From an uncultured Acidobacteriota bacterium (GTDB lineage: Bacteria; Acidobacteriota; Thermoanaerobaculia; Gp7-AA8): a DNA stretch of 12,331 bases. The DNA is taken from assembly GCA_946887105.1 (NCBI GenBank), contig CAMPKJ010000146.1:1-12331 (forward strand), given 5' to 3'. The position numbers and the translations under genes are program-made. The notes below the pieces were generated by a model. It was not told the origin of the DNA and made no database searches. It saw only the letters and a list, made by a program, of their open reading frames with translations. Position 1 is the stretch's first letter. Each line of letters begins with the position of its first letter. Positions 1 through 11,030 of this stretch are shown here, one piece after another.

Positions 1-24
1 GTCCGCGGTCATCAGCACTCTCAT
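1..24 (-). CDS. Start of a probable glycosyltransferase (partial, runs off the left edge)
   Basis: Only the first eight codons are inside the window, reading MRVLMTAD. The ATG overlaps the stop of the Gfo/Idh gene as ATGA. A Shine-Dalgarno-like GGAG lies 8 bases upstream, inside that gene. From memory, this N-terminus is typical of GT-B (family 4 type) glycosyltransferases in polysaccharide clusters, where a first beta strand runs into the nucleotide-binding fold. Position at the end of a sugar-nucleotide operon fits that role. Eight residues cannot prove a family, so the product is an inference. The existence of a coupled gene here is better supported than its identity. Confidence 0.5.
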
Positions 25-1046
25 GCGGAGATCTCCAGCGGACGCGGACGGCATTCGTGCAGCTCGTACACGCTGTCGAGGACGCGCGCGACGTCTTCGA
101 GCGACGCGATCGACTCATCGAACTGCCGGGACTGCGCGAGCTGCGACGTCCACGCCACTGCGGCGCGTCCGCCCCAAGCGTCGGGAGGGGAGGCGAGGGT
201 CTGCCGCGCCGTTTTCTCGAAACGCTCGGCGGTGAAGTCGTAGAACGATCCGTTCTCGTTGCGCATCGACACGGCGCCGCGCGTTCCGTAGAACGTGGTT
301 CGGATCTCCGCATCGCAACCGGCGGAGAGGTTCCACGAGCACGCCACCCGGATCGCCGCGCCGCTTTCGAGCTCGATGTCGAGCAGCGCGTGATCCTCGA
401 CGGCGGAGCCGTCACGCACGAACGACGTCCCGTGCGCGAACAGCCGCCCGTCCACCGAGCGGACGCGCGCATCGTTGAACATCCACAGGCCGAGATCGAC
501 GAGATGGATGCCGAGGTCGATCAGACAGCCGCCGCCTGACTGGCGTGCGTCGTAGAACCATGGCTTGTCGGGACCGTACGCGTTGTGGAACACGAGATCG
601 GCCGCATAGAGCGCGCCGATGCTTCCGGCGGCGATCTCCCGCCGCATCGCCTCGACCGCGGCCGTGTGGCGATACGACAGATCGACGCCGAGGAGCCGGC
701 CGGCGCTGCGCGCGGCGGCGATGACGCGCTGCGTTTCATCGGCGGAGCGGCCCAGCGGCTTCTGGCAGAAGACGGCCACTCCGCGTTCGAGCGCGGCGAT
801 GCATTGTTCCGCGTGCAGCGCGCTCGGCGTCGCGATCACGACGCCGTCAAGATCGAGTGCGAGCAACTCTTCGAGCGACGTCGCGATGCGCGCTTTGGGA
901 CCGAGCGAAGACGCGGCGTCGGCCGCGAGCGCGGGCGTCGCATCGGCGATTGCCACGACGTCCGCCTCACCGCTTTCGACGATCGCGTTCATGCGGTGGC
1001 GGCCGATCCATCCGACGCCGAGAAAACCCAGGCGCGGACGCGTCAT
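21..1046 (-). CDS. Gfo/Idh/MocA-family NAD(P)-dependent sugar oxidoreductase
   Basis: Cytoplasmic dehydrogenase of 341 residues, the usual size for this family, probably oxidising or reducing a (nucleotide-)sugar. The N-terminal Rossmann domain (about 1-120) opens with G10-V-G12-W-I-G15. The family's EKP signature appears as Q95-K96-P97: the catalytic lysine is kept but the preceding glutamate is glutamine. The C-terminal alpha/beta domain carries the G171-G-G stretch followed by D177 and H181, the expected substrate and catalytic residues. The start overlaps the upstream alcohol dehydrogenase stop as ATGA, and the stop overlaps the next gene the same way, so the gene sits inside a coupled operon. 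Neighbouring epimerases make a polysaccharide sugar substrate most likely. The exact substrate cannot be read from sequence. Confidence 0.93.
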   Translation of the reverse strand: MTRPRLGFLGVGWIGRHRMNAIVESGEADVVAIADATPALAADAASSLGPKARIATSLEELLALDLDGVVIATPSALHAEQCIAALERGVAVFCQKPLGRSADETQRVIAAARSAGRLLGVDLSYRHTAAVEAMRREIAAGSIGALYAADLVFHNAYGPDKPWFYDARQSGGGCLIDLGIHLVDLGLWMFNDARVRSVDGRLFAHGTSFVRDGSAVEDHALLDIELESGAAIRVACSWNLSAGCDAEIRTTFYGTRGAVSMRNENGSFYDFTAERFEKTARQTLASPPDAWGGRAAVAWTSQLAQSRQFDESIASLEDVARVLDSVYELHECRPRPLEISA

Positions 1047-1969
1047 ACCGTCACCACCGCCTTGACGAAGCCGTCGGGACGTTCCTCCAGCGCCCGGAAC
1101 GCGCGTTCGATGCGCGGGAGCGGGTAGGGTGTGTAGAGCTTCTCGACGTGCAGGCGTCCGGATGCGACCGCATCGATCGCGTCGCGCATCCCGCGCACAT
1201 AGGCCGCGCGCTCGCGCTCGTGCGCGTTCACGACGTCCAGTCCCTTCCAGTTCCAGAGCTGCATGTCGACGGTGCGATGTCCGTCCTGGTGATAGCCGGC
1301 GATGATCAACCGGCCGCGCTCGCGCACGATCCTGCTCGCGAGATCGAGCGGTTCCTGCAGGCCGGTCGCTTCGATGACGCGATCGCAGGCGAGTGGCGCG
1401 AGCTGCGGTTCATCGTCGATCGGAATCGTGGTCTGCGCGCCGAAGTCCCGCGCCACGTCGAGCGCGAATCTGCGGCGCGAGATGGCGATCACGCGCGCGC
1501 CTGCATCCGCGGCCAGGCGGACCAGGATCGCGCCGAGAAATCCGATGCCGATGACCGCGACCGATTGTCCGGCGGCGATGTCGCTCCTGCGAAACGCATT
1601 CATCGCGCAGGCGATGGCCTCGCCCGGAAAGAGGCGGCCGTCGAGCGACTCGGGAAGTACGACCACTCCGTCCGCCGGAGCGAGGTCGTGCTCCGCGAAG
1701 GCGTTGTTGGAGAGAAACGCCACGCGCTGTCCGATCCTGAGATCCGCAACATCCTCCCCGATGGCGTCGATGATTCCCCAGCCCTCGTGTCCCGGCGATC
1801 CGGGCGCGGCGGGATATTGGAACCACGAGCGTCCCTGCCACACCGGCAGGCTCGATGCGCAGACGCCGCTCCCTTCGACGGCGACGCGCACTTCATGCGC
1901 TGAGGGTTGCGGCACCGGCACGCGCGCCACGGAGATTTGACGGGATGCGCCGATGACCGCGGCATTCAT
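1043..1969 (-). CDS. Zinc-type medium-chain alcohol dehydrogenase, lacking the structural-zinc lobe
   Basis: NAD(P)-dependent alcohol/polyol dehydrogenase of the MDR superfamily, 308 residues. Likely catalytic-zinc ligands are C37 in GVCASSL, H61-E62 in PGHEGWG, and C121 in IACAMNAF. The Rossmann nucleotide site is G141-I-G143-F-L-G146. The four-cysteine structural-zinc loop normally found near residues 95-110 is absent, which explains the short length (family often 340-360). I place the start at the ATG at 1969 because it forms ATGA with the upstream epimerase stop and gives a normal MDR N-terminus. A longer reading frame up to 2068 adds only low-complexity residues overlapping the epimerase. 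It pairs with the adjacent Gfo/Idh gene, probably acting in the same modified-sugar pathway. Substrate unknown. Confidence 0.9.
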   Translation of the reverse strand: MNAAVIGASRQISVARVPVPQPSAHEVRVAVEGSGVCASSLPVWQGRSWFQYPAAPGSPGHEGWGIIDAIGEDVADLRIGQRVAFLSNNAFAEHDLAPADGVVVLPESLDGRLFPGEAIACAMNAFRRSDIAAGQSVAVIGIGFLGAILVRLAADAGARVIAISRRRFALDVARDFGAQTTIPIDDEPQLAPLACDRVIEATGLQEPLDLASRIVRERGRLIIAGYHQDGHRTVDMQLWNWKGLDVVNAHERERAAYVRGMRDAIDAVASGRLHVEKLYTPYPLPRIERAFRALEERPDGFVKAVVTV

Positions 1970-3069
1970 TGCGCGGCCACCGTCTGGCTTTGCGGCTGCA
2001 CGACCTCCGGCGCGCCGCGAAACGCCCGCACGACCGGACGCCGGCCCGGACGGGATGCGAGCAACCATTCATGAAGAAGGCGCACGCCCTGCCGCGCGCC
2101 GGTTTGCGGCGACCAGCCGGTGGCGTCGCCGAACGCGCGCGTGTCCGAAACGTAGTAGCGCTGATCGCCGCGGCGCCACTCATCGAACGCGACCTCGGGA
2201 CGGCGTCCGTCGAGAGTCTCGATCATGTCCAGCAGATCGAGCAGGCTGATCGCGTTCGCCGGTCCGCCGCCGATGTTGAAGGCGCGGCCGGAGATGGTGG
2301 CCATGTTCGTCTGCGCGAGCAGAAACGCGTCCACGAGATCGCCCGCGTAAAGGATGTCCCGCACTTGACGGCCGTCGCCGTACAACGTGATCGGCCGCCC
2401 TTCGATGGCGCGGATCAGGAAATGCGCGACCCATCCCTGATCTTCGGTTCCGAACTGATGCGGGCCGTAAATGCAGCTCATCCGGAAGACGGCCGCCGGG
2501 ATGCCGTACGAGCGGGAGTAATCGAGCACGTACTGGTCGGCGGCTCCCTTCGAACAGCCGTACGGGCTGTGGAAGTCGAGCGCGCGATCCTCGCCCAGTC
2601 CGCGTTCCGGACCGCGCACCTCGGCGGGCTGGTAGCGCCGGCCCACGGCCTGGAGGCGCATTTCGTCGAGTGCGCCGTACACCTTGTTCGTGGAGGTGAA
2701 CACGATCGGCGGAGGCGTACGCCGGCGCCGGATCGCCTCGAGCACATTCAGCGTGCCGCGCGCGTTGATCTCGAAGTCCTCGCGCGGATCGGTGAGGCTG
2801 GTCGTCACCGCCACCTGCGCGGAGAAGTGAAAGACCTGCGACGCTCCGCGCACGGCGCGCGCGACCAGCCGCGAGTTGCGAATGTCCGCCACTTCGACGT
2901 CGACGAGATCGCCGTGCGTCGCGCGCAGATACTCGAGGTTCTGTTCCACGCCGCTGCGCGAGAGGTTGTCGTAGAGCAGCACGCGCTGTCCGCCGGCGAG
3001 CAGCCGGTCGGCGAGATTGGTTCCGATGAAGCCGCAGCCTCCGGTGATGAGAACGTGCTGTCCTCTCAT
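1966..3069 (-). CDS. NAD-dependent sugar epimerase, CDP-tyvelose/paratose 2-epimerase-like
   Basis: Extended short-chain dehydrogenase of 367 residues acting on a nucleotide sugar in the cytoplasm. The NAD site is G10-G-C-G-F-I-G16. The active site has T127 in STNKVYG plus Y170 and K174 in the YGCSK motif. The stretch [16 protein letters not shown] and the later [13 protein letters not shown] and AFNIGG blocks match my memory of CDP-paratose/CDP-tyvelose 2-epimerases (RfbE/Tyv) more closely than UDP-glucose 4-epimerases. No CDP-glucose dehydratase or paratose synthase is in the window, so the true substrate may differ. The start at 3069 is chosen because it makes ATGA with the upstream stop and has AGAGGA about 8 bases before it. 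A much longer frame upstream only overlaps the preceding gene. Confidence 0.88.
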
Positions 3070-4184
3070 ACCGTGAGTCCTCTCGCCGCCAGCTCCGCGC
3101 TCGCTTCGGCAACGCGGTCGATCGCGACCTGACCCTCGAGCCAGCTCGCCAGCGAGGCCAGTCCTTCTTCGAAGTCGACCTCCGGTTTGTAGCCGAGGAG
3201 CTCGCGCGCCAGCGTGATGTCGGCAAAGCAATGGCGGATGTCGCCCATCCGGTACTTGTTCGTCACCTCGGGCTCGATGTGCTGCCGGCCGAGCGCATCG
3301 GCGACGCGCTCGGCGATCTCGCGCACGCTGTAGTTGCGGCCACTGCCGATGTTGAAGACCTGTCCCGCCGCCGCCGGCACTTCCAGCGAGAGGCGGCACG
3401 CGCGCGCGACGTCGTGAACGTGCACGAAATCGCGCCGCTGGTGCCCGTCTTCATTGATGAGCGGCGGCTTGTCGTTGAGCAGGCGCGCGGCGAAGATGGC
3501 CAGCACTCCCGTGTACGGATTCGACAGCGCCTGCCGCGGTCCGTAGATGTTGAAGAAGCGCAGCGCGACGGTCGGGATGTTGTAGCTCTTTCCGATCATC
3601 AGGCACATCCGCTCCTGATCGAACTTCGAGAGCGCGTAGACGGAGGCGAGGGAAGGCGCCTTCGTCTCAGGCGTTGCGATCGGCGTCAGCGGCTCGCCTT
3701 GATCGGTGGACAACTCCCACTCGTGCGCGCGCAACTGCTCGAGCGTGCGGCACGCATCCGCGACGAGCTGGCCGCCGGCGGTCTGGTAGAGCCCTTCGCC
3801 ATACAGGCTCATGCTCGACGCGACGATCAACCGTTCCACCGGTTTCTCGATCAGTGCTTCGAGGAGCACCGCCGTGCCGCCGTTGTTGACGTCGGTGTAG
3901 CGCTTCACCTCGTACATGCTCTGGCCGACGCCGACGAGCGCGGCCAGATGAAAGACCGCGTCGACGCCGTCGAGCGCCTTGCGGACGACGTCGCGGTCGC
4001 GGATGTCGCCTACGATCAGCTCGACTTCTTCATCGAGATACTCCGGACGTTTCCCTTCTCCGTGGACCTGGGGTGCGAGATTGTCGAGCGCGCGAACTTC
4101 GTGACCGCCGCGGAGCAGTTCGTCGGCCAGATGCGAACCGATGAATCCCGCGCCGCCGGTGATCAGTACTTTTTTCTTCTTCAT
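3066..4184 (-). CDS. NAD-dependent sugar epimerase, dTDP-L-rhamnose 4-epimerase-like
   Basis: Extended short-chain dehydrogenase of 372 residues that should interconvert nucleotide-sugar epimers. The NAD site is G10-G-A-G-F-I-G16. Catalytic residues are S124 in SSMSLYGEG and Y183/K187 in YALSK. A long insertion between them (about 132-180, with C145) and the VGVGQSMYE block recall, from memory, dTDP-L-rhamnose 4-epimerase-type proteins (WbiB-like) that form dTDP-6-deoxy-L-talose; this is suggestive only. The start is the ATG at 4184, preceded by GAGGAG and followed at once by the NAD-binding strand; the longer frame to 4823 is antisense to another gene. It appears to be the first gene of the operon, and its stop overlaps the next start as ATGA. 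Confidence 0.88.
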
Positions 4185-4349
4185 GTCTCCTCTTTTTTCG
4201 GGACCCGGCCGACCTCGTGCGCTGTTTTTTTCAGCCCTCAGCACGCTTCCGCACAAAGCAATACGCTTGCCTGCGCTTTTGCGAACTGTGCAATAGGCAA
4301 GTGGTGCAATCGGAATCGCGGCCGCGGTTTTGTGTACTCTCCGCAGACG
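4185..4349. promoter_or_regulatory. Divergent intergenic region with repeat-rich candidate operator
   Basis: These 165 bases separate the polysaccharide operon from the divergent unknown gene and must hold promoters for one or both. CTTGCCT at 4266-4272 is matched by its reverse complement AGGCAAG at 4295-4301. Between them, TTGC-N7-GCAA spans 4279-4293. GTGCAAT occurs twice, at 4288-4294 and 4304-4310. The segment is less GC-rich than the flanking genes. No convincing -35/-10 pair stands out on either strand. Regulation from this region is an inference from position and symmetry. Confidence 0.35.
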
Positions 4350-5399
4350 ATGAAGAAGGTCTTGGTGCTCGTCGCCGCACTCGCTCTCGTCGCATGGGTC
4401 ATCTCGTGGTTCCGCGTTCCGGATGTCGTTGCCACGTCGGCGGCGCGGCCGTGGCCGGGAGGAATGGGAACGCTCGACTCCGTCGCCGCGCGCTTGCCGG
4501 CGCTGCAGGCGAACGATGCATCGGTGAAGCTGACCGCGCTCGCGAATGCGCTGCCGAAGAACGAAGCGGCCGACGCATTCGTGGCGCGCGAGATCGCGCG
4601 CGGCGAGCTCACCATCGGCGCGCCGCCGCCGCTTCCCGACGTCACCGCGATCCGCGAGCTGGTGCTGCGCGAGCCGATCGTCTGGGCGCGCCGCGACGGA
4701 ATCGGCGGCGATGACGATACGCAGACGAGGCGCACGGCGCAGATGACGATCGCGCGAGCGCTGGTCGCCAGCGCGCTGGCGAAAGCGCGCGCAAACGATC
4801 CGGCGGCGTGGGAGGACCTGCACGCCGTCTGGAAGCTCGCACGCTCACTCGATGGGCATCCGCAGATGATGGCGCAAACGGCCGCGCTGACGATGGGGCG
4901 CATGATCAACGCGGTGGCCTGGAAGATGCCGCTGCCGGCGCCGGCGTGGCTCGCCGAGCTGCAGGCGCGCGACAACGTGCAACCGCTGCTCGAGGCCTTT
5001 CAGTATCAGACCGCGTCGTACTGGAAAGACGGCGCGCAGATGTTCCCGACGAAGTGGCTCGCGACGTCTGTCGATCACGATCGCCTCATCGCCGACGAGG
5101 TGTTCAAGAACACCCGGTGCGACGTGAACGTGCGCATGAATCAGCTGGGGACGGACCTTTCCTCCGTCTGGCGCCGCGCGTTCCGCTACCGCGCAGAGCG
5201 CGAGGCGACCGCGAACGCGCTGCGCGTGCGCGAGGGAACGTCGATCGATTCCGCATCGCGCTGCAGCGACGGCGGCTGGACGTTCGACGGCACGACACTG
5301 CGCTTCAGCCGCGAGATCGCCACCGCCCCGCCGGACCGGCCGATGCCGCTGGTGTTGCAGGTGAAGCCAACGGCCGCTGCCGCGCTCACCGCAGATTGA
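4350..5399 (+). CDS. Membrane-anchored protein of unknown function
   Basis: 349 residues, family not recognised. Residues 3-20 form a hydrophobic helix ([18 protein letters not shown]) after a Lys-Lys start with no clear signal-peptidase site, suggesting a signal anchor with the rest in the periplasm. The body is Ala/Arg-rich and mainly helical (about 40-245), with motifs such as LDGHPQMM and [15 protein letters not shown]. Two cysteines in the C-terminal third (in TRCDV and SRCSD) could form a disulfide, and the last 70 residues look more beta-like. The ATG at 4350 is favoured because the hydrophobic helix begins there, but no good Shine-Dalgarno precedes it; an in-frame GTG at 4332 is an alternative. 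It lies alone between two minus-strand operons, and its last 14 bases overlap the end of the fibre operon. Confidence 0.8.
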
Positions 5400-7863
5400 C
5401 GTCGTTGAGAACGGTCGGCTCGTCCGGCAGCGTCACCTGCTGCTGGAGGACGCGCCCGCCGAGCCGCGCGCGCAGCGTGAAGCTGCCGGCGGGAAGTGAG
5501 CGGATCGAGTAGCGCCCGTCGGCCGCGACGGGAACCTGCCGCGCGAGCGGATCGACGGTGATGGACGTGACACCGGGCGTCGCGCGTCCGCTGATGCTGC
5601 GGTTGGCGCGGAGCTGCAACGAAACGCTGAGCGGCTCGGCGCGATCGAGGCGCACGAGCTGCGCGGCGCCGGTCGAGAATCCCGGAGGAACGGACATCGC
5701 GTCGACGGCGAGATCCCATTCGCCCGGAGGCGCGGCGATGGAAAATCGCCCGTCGCCGGTGGAGGTCGCGGTGAATCGCGACGAGCCGCGCGTGACGGCG
5801 ATCATCACGCCGCCGACTCCTTCACCCGCATCGCTCACCACGCGGCCGATCAGGCGCGCGGGCGTGCGTGCGATCCCGAAGCGAACGACGTCACCGCTGT
5901 TCGCTTCGACGCGCGAAGGCGTGGTGAAAAACGCTCCTTCGATGTGCGGCACGCGCGCGGTCACGCGATGTGCTCCGCGGCTGATGCCGCTCACTTCGTA
6001 CGATCCGTCCTTCGACGTCTTCACGACGCGCGCGCCATCGACGTCGATCTCGGCGTCGGCCACTCCGCCTCCGTCCGGCGATCCGTCGAGGTCTTCGTCG
6101 ACGAACACCGATCCGCGGATCGTTCCACTGGCGCCGAACGAGGGAAGCTCGTCGAAACGATGGCGCAGGCCAATCTCGGCGATCGGCTGCTGCACTTCTT
6201 CCTGCCCGCGCCGTCGCGTGAGCCAGAGCGTGTACGACGCGAAGACGTCGGTCGATTCCGTGATGCGGCGCGAGCCGCTCAGCGTGGCGATGACCGTGTC
6301 GGTGCGCATGGCCACGGATTCCTGACGATTGAAGAGGAAGCGCGCGCGCAGCTGCGGCCGCGATGCGCCGGCGCCGAGCCACGCCATCTCCATCCCCGCC
6401 TGCGTGCGCACCGGCGCGAGCTCGACGGTCACGCCTTCGATGTAACCGAGCTCGATCAGCGCGCTGTTCTCGCGAAGAGCGCGGGCGATGTCGCCGGGAG
6501 TGGTGGCGGTGATGCCGAGGCGCTCGAGCGCGAGTGCGAGGTCGGGGCGCTCGCGGAAGATCAGCGCCAGCGTCGGCGCCTGTTCCTGATGATCGATGTA
6601 GGCCGTGCTGAAGAAGCGTCCCGCGGAGAGGCGTGCGGCGATGCGGAATCCATTGCCGCCGCGATTGGTCGAGGAATTCTCCGACCAGCGATAGACGCCG
6701 CTCACGCCGAAGCGGCCGGTGTCGAATTGCACGCCGGCGGGGATGATCAGGCTGCGGCTGCCCGCGAACGAGCCGTAGCCCGCGCCGCCGAGCAGCGAGA
6801 CGGAGTCGGTGAGGCGATAGCGTCCGTTCGCCGTTGCGCTCGCCGTGCGCTGCCGGAACGCGGGCAGGTCGAAGTCGTTCAGCGAGGCGCTCGCGTCGAT
6901 GGAGGTGCGTCCGAATGTTCCCGACCACGAGCCATCGGCGAACAGGCCGCGCTGCTGCCCCGGAGTGACGACGGCGAAGTCGCGCGGACGATAGCGGACG
7001 TCGAGACGCATCTGCTGTGTCTCGCGATTCAACACCAGCTGCGCGGCGGCGCCGACGGAGCCGTTGCTCGCGGCGAGCTCGCCACGCGCGCGCGTGTTCT
7101 CGTCGCGCGTGTAGTCGACCAGCAACGACCCGACCGTGCCTTGCACGCTCGGATAGGTGAACAGGCCCGGCGTGATGCGCCAGCGCGCGCTTGCGGGAAT
7201 GCTGTACGCCGCGCCGAGCACCGTCTGTCGCTCGGTCGGGATCAGGAAGGACTGGTACGCGGTGTACGCCGTGTAGCCCGCGTGCGCGCGCCAGCGGTCG
7301 TTGACGAAATGCAGGCCGCGCACGGTGGCCGTGTCGATCGTGAGCGGAGAGTGATCGATCACGCGATCGAGAAAGGTGAGCTCGTTCCTGCCGCGGAAGA
7401 TGCGGAAGGAGACCGACGGCAGGGTCACGCCCGCGCGCGAGGACTGCTTCTCTCCGTAGTGCGCGCTCTCGATGTGGAGCTGCGTCTGCCGGGTCGCGAG
7501 GTCGATCGACGCCTCGGTTTCTTTCTGCGCGGAGACGTAGCGCGTCTCGATCGTGCCGTTCGTGGGACCGCTTTGCCGGACCGGCGCGATCTGTCCGCGG
7601 CTCTCGACGGTGACGTCGAACACGGACTGTCCGGTCACGCTCAGGACGATCAGTTGCGTGGTGCCGGCGCTGCGTCCGAAGAGCGTGACCGTTCCGCCGT
7701 GCGCGGAGGCCTCGGCGATCGAGGCGTCGACGGTGTAGGCCGCCGTGGCGGCGAAGACCTGCATCACCTTCGAGTCGTGGACGCGAAGCGCGATCTTGCG
7801 ATTCGCCTGCGCGGCGGCGGCGCCGGCGGCGAGGCACGCGATCACGAAGGCGAGCTTCCTCAC
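5386..7863 (-). CDS. Usher-like outer-membrane barrel with secretin N-domain and C-terminal Cna-B-like repeats
   Basis: 825 residues, starting at GTG. A signal peptide (1-20, cut near AQA|N) leads to residues 21-87, which look like the pilus-assembly/secretin N-domain of CpaC-type proteins (strands ending [12 protein letters not shown] and VFDVTV). Residues about 150-575 are a long run of amphipathic strands with aromatic girdles, as in an outer-membrane barrel, interrupted by a helical segment near 430-475. The tail has an SdrD-B-like domain (578-664, [12 protein letters not shown]), a carboxypeptidase-regulatory-like domain (668-752) and a third related one (755-825). I see no cysteine after residue 10. 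GTGA overlap with the chaperone-like gene implies coupled translation. By context it probably exports or anchors the two small subunits. Classical usher motifs were not recognised, so the usher role is inferred; a non-secretory surface barrel is the alternative. Confidence 0.82.
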
Positions 7864-8618
7864 CGGACGTCGATCTCCGCCGACTGCGTCATCGCGCTTT
7901 GTTCGTAGTTGTAGGTCAGGAGCAGGCGGTATTTCCCGGGTTGCAGCTCGGCCGCGTATTCGGCTCCGAGTTGCGCGGTCTCGCCGGGCAGCAGGCGCTT
8001 CGGCTGCAGCGCGGCTTTGCCGGCGATGCGGCCGTCTTCGCCGATCACGGCCAGCATGCCTTTGGCGATGAGCGGCTCGCTGCCGGAGTTTCTGCAGATC
8101 TGCGCGACGGCGAGATTCGACGTCGGCGACTGTTCCTGCACGCGCAGCGGTTCGGCGGTCATCTGCACTTCGTCCGACAAGGCGAAGGTGAGCAGCGCGC
8201 CGAGGGAGGCGGTGGAGGAGAGAGAGCCATTGACGAAACGATCGGTGCCGCGGAACAGCGCGACCACCGCGCGCGTCGTTGCATTCGGCGGAATGGTGAT
8301 GCGCATGGTGACGGGAGCCATCTCGCCCGGCGCGACCATCACGCGACGCTCGGAAAAGACAGCCGTGGCGGCGACGCTCGCGGGAATCTCGCCGGCGGGC
8401 AGCATGGCCCGCACGCCGTCGCGCACCACCACGTCCTGCGCGGAGACTTCGAACGTGAGCTTGCGCGACGTGCCGTTGCGCACGAACAGCGTCTGCAGCG
8501 TGCTCTGTCCCGTTTCTCCGCGCAGCATGATCACGGCGGGGGAGAGTGAGACCGTGCCGTCGGCGGCGAAGGCGCTGGCGGCGAACAGCAGTGCGGTGAG
8601 CGTCAAGATGGATTTCAT
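7860..8618 (-). CDS. Periplasmic two-domain chaperone-like protein
   Basis: 252 residues with a signal peptide cut after about A18 (SAFA|AD). Two beta-sandwich domains are suggested. The first (21-150) has the pattern of fimbrial chaperones and Ig-like folds: a first strand VSLSPAVIML, then VRNGTSRKLTFEV, then a V-APGEM-PVTMRITIP strand. The second (151-252) has the NSGSEPLIAKGML and LLPGETAQL...L-PGKYRLLLTY pattern seen in chaperone second domains and also in the DUF916/DUF3324 pair of WxL-interacting proteins. Only one cysteine is present (C175). It starts 9 bases after the preceding stop, with GAGG of its ribosome site overlapping that stop, and its own stop overlaps the barrel gene. Probable job: holding the small subunits in the periplasm and delivering them to the barrel. 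The family assignment is from fold pattern only. Confidence 0.78.
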   Translation of the reverse strand: MKSILTLTALLFAASAFAADGTVSLSPAVIMLRGETGQSTLQTLFVRNGTSRKLTFEVSAQDVVVRDGVRAMLPAGEIPASVAATAVFSERRVMVAPGEMAPVTMRITIPPNATTRAVVALFRGTDRFVNGSLSSTASLGALLTFALSDEVQMTAEPLRVQEQSPTSNLAVAQICRNSGSEPLIAKGMLAVIGEDGRIAGKAALQPKRLLPGETAQLGAEYAAELQPGKYRLLLTYNYEQSAMTQSAEIDVR

Positions 8619-8627
8619 CGGCAGACC

Positions 8628-9107
8628 TCAGTCGGTGGATACATCCCAGCGGATCGCGCTGGCGAACGCTCCCTCGGCCACTTCCGCGGGAACTTCGATC
8701 TCGATCGTGTGGGTGGTGACGACGCCGAGCGGAGCGTGCGCGAGAATCACTTTGGGGATCGTGCTCATCGGGATTCCATCGATGCGCATCGTCGAGCGTC
8801 CGTCATGCGACTCGAGGGAGGCGCGGAGCGTGGCGGTCACGCCTTCGCCGGAACCGGAAGCCTCGAGTCGCACGCCGAACGTTTTGCGGATGGTGGTGAA
8901 CTGTTTCGTCCCTCGCCGTGCCGCGGATCGCACACGGGCGGTCGAGCCGGCGTCGATCATCGCGTCCGTTCCGCTTCCCGGCACGCCGACGAACGCGATG
9001 CGGATCTCGTCGTGCGCGGCGGGGGAGACCGCCACCACACGGCGGCGGCCTCCGAAGGCGGGACCCGTCAGGGCCAGGCTGAGGATCAGGGCGAGGGTTT
9101 GTTTCAT
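8628..9107 (-). CDS. Small secreted beta-rich protein, probable minor fibre subunit
   Basis: 159 residues with a signal peptide ending near G19 (PAFG|G), followed by a basic RRR stretch. The mature part alternates hydrophobic and polar residues in a beta-sandwich pattern and contains no cysteine. Its last 27 residues (133-159) align without gaps to the last 27 of the neighbouring pilin-like protein: I137, V139, A147 and I152 are identical and many other positions are conservative. This suggests a shared fold and a minor, adaptor or tip subunit role. It starts 14 bases downstream of the pilin-like gene, with GAGG about 9 bases before the ATG at 9107; longer upstream frames have no signal peptide. 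I do not recognise the family by name. Confidence 0.75.
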   Translation of the reverse strand: MKQTLALILSLALTGPAFGGRRRVVAVSPAAHDEIRIAFVGVPGSGTDAMIDAGSTARVRSAARRGTKQFTTIRKTFGVRLEASGSGEGVTATLRASLESHDGRSTMRIDGIPMSTIPKVILAHAPLGVVTTHTIEIEVPAEVAEGAFASAIRWDVSTD

Positions 9108-9121
9108 GGAGGGAAACCTCG

Positions 9122-9637
9122 TTAGTTCGAGGTGGCAGTGAAGCTGATCGAGTTGTCGATGGCGGCCGCGCTGGCGGAGTCGGCGACGACGATGTCCCAC
9201 GAGTAGGAGCCGGTCGAGCCATAGGTGCCGGTGCTGGTCAGCGTCGTGGCCGCGGAGTCGCTGAGCGTGGAACCGTTCAGCTTCCAGGTCACGCCGCTGC
9301 TGGGCGCGCTGCCGAGTTGCGCGGTGAGCGTGTAGTCGGTGCTGGTGAGATTGGCCTTGTCGACTTTCACGCCTACGGTCGACGAGAGCGTCCAGTCGGA
9401 TGCGCCGCGCGCCAGCGTGAATCCGGTCGGGGCCGAGCCATACTTGCTGATGCTGCCGAGCGCGGACGTCGCCGCGGCGGTGCCGGTGCCGCTGGTCGTG
9501 CCGCCGGCCGATTCGACGGTCAGGCTGATCGAGCTCTCGACCGTACCGGTGACGGTCAACGTGCCGCTGCTGGTCGCGGCCGAGGCCACGGATGCGAAGG
9601 TGAGGCTGACTGCGAGAACAACGAATGCTTTCTTCAT
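9122..9637 (-). CDS. Pilin-like secreted subunit, first gene of the fibre operon
   Basis: 171 residues with a clear signal peptide (MKKAFVVLAVSLTFASVASA|A, cut after A20). The mature protein is very rich in Ser, Thr, Gly and Ala, lacks cysteine, and is built of short alternating strands, as in fibre subunits. The mature N-terminus (SGTLTVTGTVESSISLTV) is a regular alternating segment that could serve as a donor strand in subunit polymerisation. The C-terminus is a strand pair beginning near Y145 and ending SISFTATSN. The start at 9637 has AGGAG 10 bases upstream and begins the signal peptide; a longer frame to 9778 does not. First position and low-complexity composition suggest the abundant subunit. 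It resembles the class of spore-coat-U or alpha-type fimbrial subunits only in general pattern. Confidence 0.78.
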   Translation of the reverse strand: MKKAFVVLAVSLTFASVASAATSSGTLTVTGTVESSISLTVESAGGTTSGTGTAAATSALGSISKYGSAPTGFTLARGASDWTLSSTVGVKVDKANLTSTDYTLTAQLGSAPSSGVTWKLNGSTLSDSAATTLTSTGTYGSTGSYSWDIVVADSASAAAIDNSISFTATSN

Positions 9638-9848: not shown

Positions 9849-11030
9849 ATGAAGCGCGAACTCGCAACGATGCACGGGTCCCGGACGCGAACCGTGGAGC
9901 GCGATCCGATCAGGCGATTCTCGGAGAGCATGCAAGGCGTGGTGATCAGCCTCGAGATGCGCAGCGCGGACGAGCTTGCGCTCGATGCGAAGGTGAATCC
10001 CGACGCGGCGCTGCGTGAGCATGCGTTGTATCAACTGGTGGACAAGCTCGGGCCGGAGGCGCTCCCGCACATCGAGACGGCGCTCTTCAACGATCCCGAT
10101 CCGCAGGTCCGCATCAACCTCCTCTGGACACTCGAATCGCTCGATCACGAGCGCGCGCCCGAGATCGCGCGTCTGCTGATCAACGATCCGAGCCCGCGCG
10201 TCCGCGAGTGGGCGCGCGTGTTCTGCTGGGAGAAGGAATGGGTGGCGGACGACTTCCGCCAGGCGAAGGAAGCCCAGTTCCACGCGAACCGGACCTTCGA
10301 CGAGACCATCTTCCTGCACATCAAGTGCGACCTCTACGTGCGCATGGCCGCGGACAACACGGTCTGGGGTCACATCTATCTCAGTCCGCAGATGCTCGCG
10401 CGCGTGTACGGCCAGGCGTATGCCTGCCCCATCACGGCGACGCGTGAACGGGAGATCGTCATCGCCAAGACGCTCTCCGGACTGCACGAAGACGGCAGCG
10501 ATCACTACGAATCGTTCCTCTTCCGCGGCTTCACCGAGCGCACCGCCCTGAACACCGGCAGCTTCTATTTCGAGACGCACTCTCCGCGTCCGTTCTACCT
10601 GTCGGGCAAGGCGGACGACACGTCCGAAGGCGTGATCCCGGACGTGACCATCCCGTTCGCGCGCGAAGGACAGTGGTTCCTGAACGACAACATCCAGGTG
10701 AACGGCGCCTCGGCGATCGAGTACGTGCGCGGACTCTTCCAGGGCTGGGCCTACGTGAATCACGAGCGCATCCAGGAAAGCGGCGGCGACTTCCTCTTCC
10801 CCGGCAATTCCGTGCTCTCCACGCTCCACCATCCGGTGGTCGGAGCGAAGACGAATACGTTCATCAGCGGATCCTTCAAGGGGAAGGTGGTCGACTGGAA
10901 CGACGACGGCATTCTCGATCTCAACTACCTCCAGTCGCCGGCGACGGCCCTGGGAGAAGTCGACTCGAACTTCGACGGCATTCCGGACGTCCCCGGATTG
11001 ACGGTTTGCCCGCGGCCCTTACAGAAGTAG
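9849..11030 (+). CDS. HEAT-repeat protein with C-terminal DxNxDG calcium-loop-like motifs
   Basis: 393 residues, no signal peptide, so presumably cytoplasmic. Residues about 50-129 hold HEAT-like helical repeats with a near 31-residue period, shown by NDPDPQVR (81-88) and NDPSPRVR (112-119) at matching positions. The central part (130-345) is an unrecognised, aromatic-rich and probably beta-containing domain. Near the end are D349-W-N-D-D353-G-I-L-D357 and D372-S-N-F-D376-G-I-P-D380. Both fit the DxNxDGxxD calcium loop of EF-hand, dockerin and thrombospondin type-3 repeats, which is odd for a protein without an export signal. The start at 9849 is well supported by GGGGAAGAG just upstream. It is divergent from the fibre operon and 66 bases upstream of the SRPBCC gene. 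Molecular function unknown; the HEAT region suggests protein-protein contact. Confidence 0.85.
   Translation: MKRELATMHGSRTRTVERDPIRRFSESMQGVVISLEMRSADELALDAKVNPDAALREHALYQLVDKLGPEALPHIETALFNDPDPQVRINLLWTLESLDHERAPEIARLLINDPSPRVREWARVFCWEKEWVADDFRQAKEAQFHANRTFDETIFLHIKCDLYVRMAADNTVWGHIYLSPQMLARVYGQAYACPITATREREIVIAKTLSGLHEDGSDHYESFLFRGFTERTALNTGSFYFETHSPRPFYLSGKADDTSEGVIPDVTIPFAREGQWFLNDNIQVNGASAIEYVRGLFQGWAYVNHERIQESGGDFLFPGNSVLSTLHHPVVGAKTNTFISGSFKGKVVDWNDDGILDLNYLQSPATALGEVDSNFDGIPDVPGLTVCPRPLQK

Follow-up and report, generated by a model that had tools for sequence, protein, structure and literature searches.

Chaperone-usher systems are split into alternative, classical, and archaic types, of which, according to the available text of PMC9452303, only the archaic type extends to a wide range of phyla, and the usher survey of PMC5717340, in its accessible portion, starts from the PF00577 model. 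Another point of reference is the WxL-interacting proteins (WxLIP) of Gram-positive bacteria which, as described in the available sections of PMC10599100, consist of two immunoglobulin (Ig) domains and a C-terminal membrane helix that virtually all of them possess, with a strand predicted to insert into WxL; the words chaperone and usher are absent from the main text of that paper in the form available. Here we describe a block of four minus-strand genes in a 12,331-nucleotide stretch of DNA (the window; contig CAMPKJ010000146.1, assembly GCA_946887105.1) from an uncultured Acidobacteriota bacterium. The block encodes a pilin-like subunit, a second subunit, a periplasmic-chaperone-like protein, and an usher-like outer-membrane barrel, and is probably an operon for fibre assembly of the chaperone-usher type, from a lineage that the existing family models do not recognize. 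In literature searches over open-licence PMC papers, none of the titles and abstract openings listed described this four-gene system.

The four genes are tightly coupled (Table 1): 14 nucleotides separate the pilin gene from that of the second subunit and 9 nucleotides the latter from the chaperone gene, the chaperone and barrel genes overlap by 4 nucleotides, and AGGAG precedes the ATG of the pilin gene, the first of the block. Each of the four proteins has a signal-peptide-like start, as judged by eye. The subunits are free of cysteine, the chaperone contains C175, and C10 is the only cysteine of the barrel. An earlier note on this DNA, made from the sequence, had read these genes as one coupled block with two cysteine-free subunits; the coordinates and spacing, in the one case, and the composition of the translated genes, in the other, bear it out.

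Table 1. Features of the window
Coordinates	Strand	Feature	Remarks
9122..9637	minus	Pilin-like major subunit, 171 aa	No cysteine; ATG, AGGAG upstream
8628..9107	minus	Second subunit, 159 aa	No cysteine; proposed tip subunit
7860..8618	minus	Periplasmic-chaperone-like protein, 252 aa	Two Ig-like domains predicted (AlphaFold2 model)
5386..7863	minus	Usher-like outer-membrane barrel, 825 aa	GTG start; predicted from Pfam and AlphaFold2 model
4350-5399	plus	349-aa protein, converges on barrel gene	No Pfam match at E up to 0.001
21-4823	minus	Sugar-type oxidoreductase (GFO/IDH/MocA), zinc alcohol dehydrogenase, two NAD-dependent epimerases in a row	
9849-11030	plus	393-aa HEAT-repeat protein, divergent from pilin gene	

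The gene order is conserved well beyond the window. Among 16 compared loci (the window, nine loci of a genome scan, L001-L009, and, from further genome searches, L019-L021 and L093-L095, with flanks of differing length and some loci short), the chaperone and barrel genes are adjacent in all 16, which rules against chance neighbours, and a pilin gene lies upstream of the chaperone gene in 15. The same 15 loci carry the second subunit (ten in one cluster, four in another, and the G011 locus, which appears as L016), and in these 15 the two subunit genes are directly upstream. L007, the exception, breaks off where its contig ends; in that genome, the pilin and second-subunit genes are found together close to the end of a different contig. 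The other shared clusters comprise antisense open reading frames (ORFs) over the same genes and one signalling cluster, present in five loci, the three scanned members of which are histidine-kinase, PAS/GAF, or GGDEF proteins.

For the 252-residue protein, AlphaFold2 predicts two Ig-like domains and no C-terminal membrane helix. In a Foldseek search with this model, the pilus chaperones CfaA and EcpB are within the first 25 matches; a Pfam scan (E up to 10) gave below-cut-off matches only. A tree of 48 chaperone sequences, midpoint-rooted and with long branches, places the 12 window-type chaperones in one group (support 100/100) outside five grouped acidobacterial archaic rows (98/97) and thus not within the archaic group, which is represented by six rows and no Csu sequence; the nearest named branch is that of the Ecp chaperones (94/91, with two alpha rows in the tree).

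The best structural match of the chaperone model is a WxLIP (root-mean-square deviation, rmsd, 8.0), and this brings up a WxL-type complex, in which the 252-residue protein, as a WxLIP relative, would stay on the subunits at the wall or outer surface, with the barrel only anchoring them or exporting them singly. Weak matches to WxLIP_PGBD in 6 of 36 chaperone relatives (best E 0.0029), a match of an Eremiobacterota relative to the same model that stays below its cut-off (E 1.3e-5, 25.7 bits against 27.3), and SPOR domains in 15 of 27 barrel homologues point in the same direction. We nonetheless consider such a complex highly unlikely: none of these relatives scores above the cut-off of the WxLIP family model; no WxL family was found in either window subunit (Pfam, E up to 10) or in 12 pilins or 11 second subunits (E up to 5); and, as far as the available text of PMC10599100 goes, the 252-residue protein lacks the membrane helix typical of WxLIP and the barrel is a partner unmatched in WxL clusters.

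In the 825-residue barrel, Pfam recognizes T2SS-T3SS_pil_N ('Pilus formation protein N terminal region') above cut-off at residues 21-86 (E 5.8e-6) and three CarboxypepD_reg stretches, with three CarboxypepD_reg/Ig-like domains at the C-terminus. The AlphaFold2 model (predicted template-modelling score, pTM, 0.57) has about 26 strands at 102-570, with a low-confidence helical insert at 437-471. Ushers occupy ranks 1-10 of the Foldseek search with this model (E from 2.9e-16 up to 1.9e-12); TonB-type receptors begin at E 1.3e-7, about eight orders of magnitude behind. Given this ranking and the lack of a TonB plug among the families found, we rejected identification of the barrel as a porin or TonB receptor, the counter-signs being given below. 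The corresponding explanation of the whole block, an unrelated outer-membrane receptor or porin accompanied by secreted accessory Ig-like proteins in nutrient uptake, is scarcely credible, since the CarboxypepD_reg/Ig-like domains lie C-terminal to the barrel, the families found in 27 barrels include no TonB plug, ushers lead TonB-type receptors in the Foldseek ranking, and the two secreted subunits are homologous to each other. The SPOR domain found at the C-terminus of 15 barrel homologues is absent from the window barrel; SPOR is a peptidoglycan-binding domain, and its presence hints at a peptidoglycan anchor, perhaps where the cell divides. A Protein Data Bank (PDB) sequence search with the barrel profile matched the C-terminal Ig-like and SPOR domains only, and a match of the L094 barrel to an usher profile (E 1.7e-5) was rejected as proof of usher kinship because it covers the C-terminal Ig-like domains only.

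The earlier note had named three results that would speak against a chaperone-usher-like reading, namely, a 252-residue protein without an Ig-like chaperone fold, a barrel that is a TonB-dependent receptor or porin, and four-gene synteny missing elsewhere. None of these turned up: the models agree with the proposed two-domain chaperone and barrel, ushers outrank TonB-type receptors among the matches of the barrel, subject to the counter-signs given below, and the order recurs across the compared loci. The reading is supported, with reservations as to the fibre and to sequence homology between the barrel and ushers.

The two subunits are, judging by their profiles, homologous to each other. Aligned with hhalign, the pilin profile (12 rows) and the second-subunit profile (11 rows) match at Prob 97.2 (E 4.5e-11), and at Prob 96.8 without signal peptides, against 0.0-0.5 for six shuffles; the predicted beta-rich nature of both proteins rests on their sequences and on this homology. 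Pfam (E up to 10) gives below-cut-off matches only for the pilin and nothing for the second subunit, and PDB sequence searches with the pilin, second-subunit, and chaperone profiles produced no credible match, all rows being at chance level (E >=0.48). Donor strands are marked by alternating hydrophobic residues and a glycine, and we propose as such a strand pilin residues 25-33, GTLTVTGTV, where in an alignment of 12 pilins residue 27 is Leu in all 12, residue 29 Val in 11, and residue 25 Gly in 10. This strand aligns, weakly, with GGTVHFKGEV of FimA (Prob 25.9). The statement of the earlier note that the four proteins show no familiar motifs stands for Pfam and NCBIfam and has to be relaxed for the pilin, with its GTLTVTG weakly aligned with the FimA N-terminal strand. 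The alignment of the two subunits opens at pilin residue 33, so that nothing in the second subunit corresponds to the preceding GTLTVTGT; the N-terminal strand thus appears to be present in the pilin and absent from its partner.

These features fit a mechanism in which both subunits would enter the periplasm in the form of incomplete Ig-like domains, each to be held by the two-domain chaperone through the loan of a beta strand. The usher-like barrel would take in the chaperone-subunit complexes, the GTLTVTG strand of an incoming pilin would displace the chaperone strand in the preceding subunit by donor-strand exchange, and the polymer would exit through the barrel. Lacking a donor strand, the second subunit could only accept one, and so would enter first and come to sit at the tip. 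The analysis shows the gene order and its conservation, the two folds as models, the kinship of the subunits, and the presence or absence of the N-terminal strand; that the proteins act in the periplasm, form complexes, exchange strands, place the second subunit at the tip, and build a fibre is inferred.

The same chaperone and barrel could, alternatively, export the subunits into a coat, that is, a surface layer, a capsule-like mesh, or a resting-cell coat in place of separate filaments. Amorphous capsules or spore coats are products of some chaperone-usher systems, and the pilin is unusually conserved and rich in serine and threonine. The N-terminal donor-like strand suggests linear polymers, yet a coat would use the same strand, and sequence cannot separate the two; on balance, a coat seems unlikely. 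As for the conservation of the pilin, its amino acid identity between the window and L001, L002, L004, and L005 is 79-90%, compared with 47-69% for the chaperone and 37-56% for the barrel, with third-position identity at 61-68%; surface-exposed pilins usually show the reverse pattern. Three tandem pilins occur in L009, and a second pilin copy (L105 6114-6755, G002:C179), whose genome carries the operon as well, has no chaperone or barrel match within the 13 kb covered.

Several observations weigh against a fibre-assembly operon of the chaperone-usher type. Pfam (E up to 10) and NCBIfam detect no chaperone, usher, or pilin family in the window proteins (NCBIfam giving no above-cut-off match for any of the four), PF00577 and PF00345, among others, being the family models concerned; nor do the families found in the 36 chaperone relatives and 27 barrels include any of the three kinds. 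The structural matches of the chaperone have large rmsd values (4.2-8.0), its match to the archaic profile falls from Prob 77 to 33 once signal peptides are removed, and the chain of chaperone-profile matches could partly stem from common Ig ancestry. The barrel model shows neither an usher N-terminal domain nor an Ig-type plug; the usher E-values in Foldseek include the C-terminal Ig-like domains; template-modelling (TM) scores against ushers are low (0.25-0.33); with the barrel only, a porin (Z 15.4) is close behind FimD (16.8) and PapC (15.8); and the rmsd is 5.2-5.5, or 16-21 against whole ushers. Profile comparison did not establish homology of the barrel with ushers: hhalign against pooled ushers gave Prob 11.3 with one profile and 2.0 with a larger one (controls: TonB receptors 0.5-4.4, six shuffles 0.1-0.2), and Prob stayed <=19 throughout against TonB receptors, ushers, and distant ORFs. 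In NCBIfam, one of the 27 barrel homologues weakly matches SusC/RagA (E 1.1e-4). As for the subunits, the first strand of the second subunit can also be aligned with the N-terminal region of FimA (Prob 11.8), contrary to the proposed absence of a donor strand and tip role, and the match of the pilin to acidobacterial archaic-type pilins drops from Prob 45.9 to 0.5 after N-terminal trimming, which locates the signal in the N-terminal stretch.

Genome searches scored the best candidates of a loose first pass, so that all counts are lower bounds. The chaperone-like protein has 395 relatives at E<=0.001 (the best 120 of 395 inspected), and the barrel region has at least 77, or at least 124 with a wider nine-sequence profile (the best 120 of 124 inspected), each barrel search covering up to about 8000 candidates. 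The organisms named among the matches listed are Thermoanaerobaculia or Acidobacteria/Acidobacteriota, with 'SPOR domain-containing protein', 'Fn3-like domain-containing protein', and 'hypothetical protein' among the product names. In the class of G001, the window-type chaperone occurs in 7 of 148 genomes, a PF00577 usher in 10, and both in none, an absence of overlap that is not significant because chance would give only about 0.5 shared genomes. A phylum sample contains the window-type chaperone in 7 of 396 genomes, four weakly, and a wider profile finds it, seeds included and mostly weakly, in 15/250 genomes (class of G007), 37/117 (class of G006), and 2/200 (order of G005). One operon, split over two contigs (L007 and L104), belongs to a genome labelled Paucimonas sp., a betaproteobacterium; with only two matching genomes, one of them weak, among 200 of that order, the operon may have arrived there by transfer or through mis-binning.

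The surroundings of 24 weak chaperone matches (L077-L092 and L096-L103) extend the picture. In 20 of them, a large ORF of 748-1074 aa (in two parts in L091) with similar C-terminal domains lies beside or near the chaperone gene, L101 has only a short piece of it, and L099, L100, and L102 have none; small secreted proteins lie between or beside the two genes in the six loci inspected for them, five of them weak-match loci. The match of these distant ORFs to the full barrel profile was rejected as proof of kinship to the window barrel, as it involves mainly the C-terminal domains and partly the N-terminal one. Nine Eremiobacterota-type loci (L077-L085, class of G006) combine a distant chaperone with a 1007-1074-aa ORF about 0.7-1.1 kb away; in the two of these loci that were inspected for them, small secreted proteins occupy the gap. 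In L097 (3383-8682, G372:C40), four small secreted proteins stand in tandem, two of them matching the archaic-pilin profile (E 0.0034 and 1.4e-4), together with a chaperone that matches new-type as well as classical/archaic profiles and a 748-aa ORF whose C-terminus carries SdrD_B/CarboxypepD domains; this locus is possibly a bridge between the systems. In the window itself, the genes at 21-4823 resemble the content of surface-polysaccharide clusters.

A broader scenario is conceivable, although we hold it with distinctly less confidence than the assignment of the operon itself. The window-type loci might represent a further major chaperone-usher branch, beside the classical, alternative, and archaic ones, across Acidobacteriota and Eremiobacterota, in which the usher N-terminal domain and plug were replaced by a secretin-type pil_N domain, with a SPOR tie to peptidoglycan in many members, and the chaperone would stand between pilus chaperones and WxLIP, all derived from one ancestral strand-lending chaperone. 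Because surveys start from PF00577 and no scanned barrel matches it, fibre systems of soil lineages would go uncounted. The lineage would open two questions to testing: which domains an usher can lose or exchange in chaperone-usher assembly, and whether the chaperones of pili have a common origin with WxL-interacting proteins.

How, then, does the locus compare with the known systems? From the WxL/WxLIP complexes, it differs in the missing membrane helix, the rmsd of 8.0, and an outer-membrane barrel partner without counterpart in the WxL clusters of PMC10599100, as far as its available text goes. From the archaic (sigma) systems, such as Csu, it differs in a barrel that is not reported as PF00577, has pil_N at its N-terminus, and shows no Ig-type plug in the model, in its cysteine-free subunits, and in chaperones that form a separate tree group. 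With the classical systems (FimC/FimD, PapD/PapC), it shares a barrel model closest to FimD and PapC and a pilin strand that aligns weakly with that of FimA, whereas there is no Pfam match, the subunits lack disulphide-forming cysteines, and hhalign against K-12 gamma sets gives Prob 0.1-0.4 for the chaperone and barrel. The alternative (alpha) systems, CFA/I and Ecp, come near through CfaA and EcpB in Foldseek and the Ecp branch of the tree, which lacks full support, whereas hhalign against single or paired Ecp sequences gives Prob 0.6 for the chaperone, 0.3 for the usher, and 0.2 for the pilin. Ushers in general have about 24 strands, compared with about 26 in the window model, at its pTM of 0.57 and with porins close in barrel-only Z. 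By its anatomy, the system would work as chaperone-usher systems do: although set apart from them by sequence family, it has, like them, the subunit, chaperone, and usher-like genes in one operon and a chaperone predicted to consist of two Ig-like domains.
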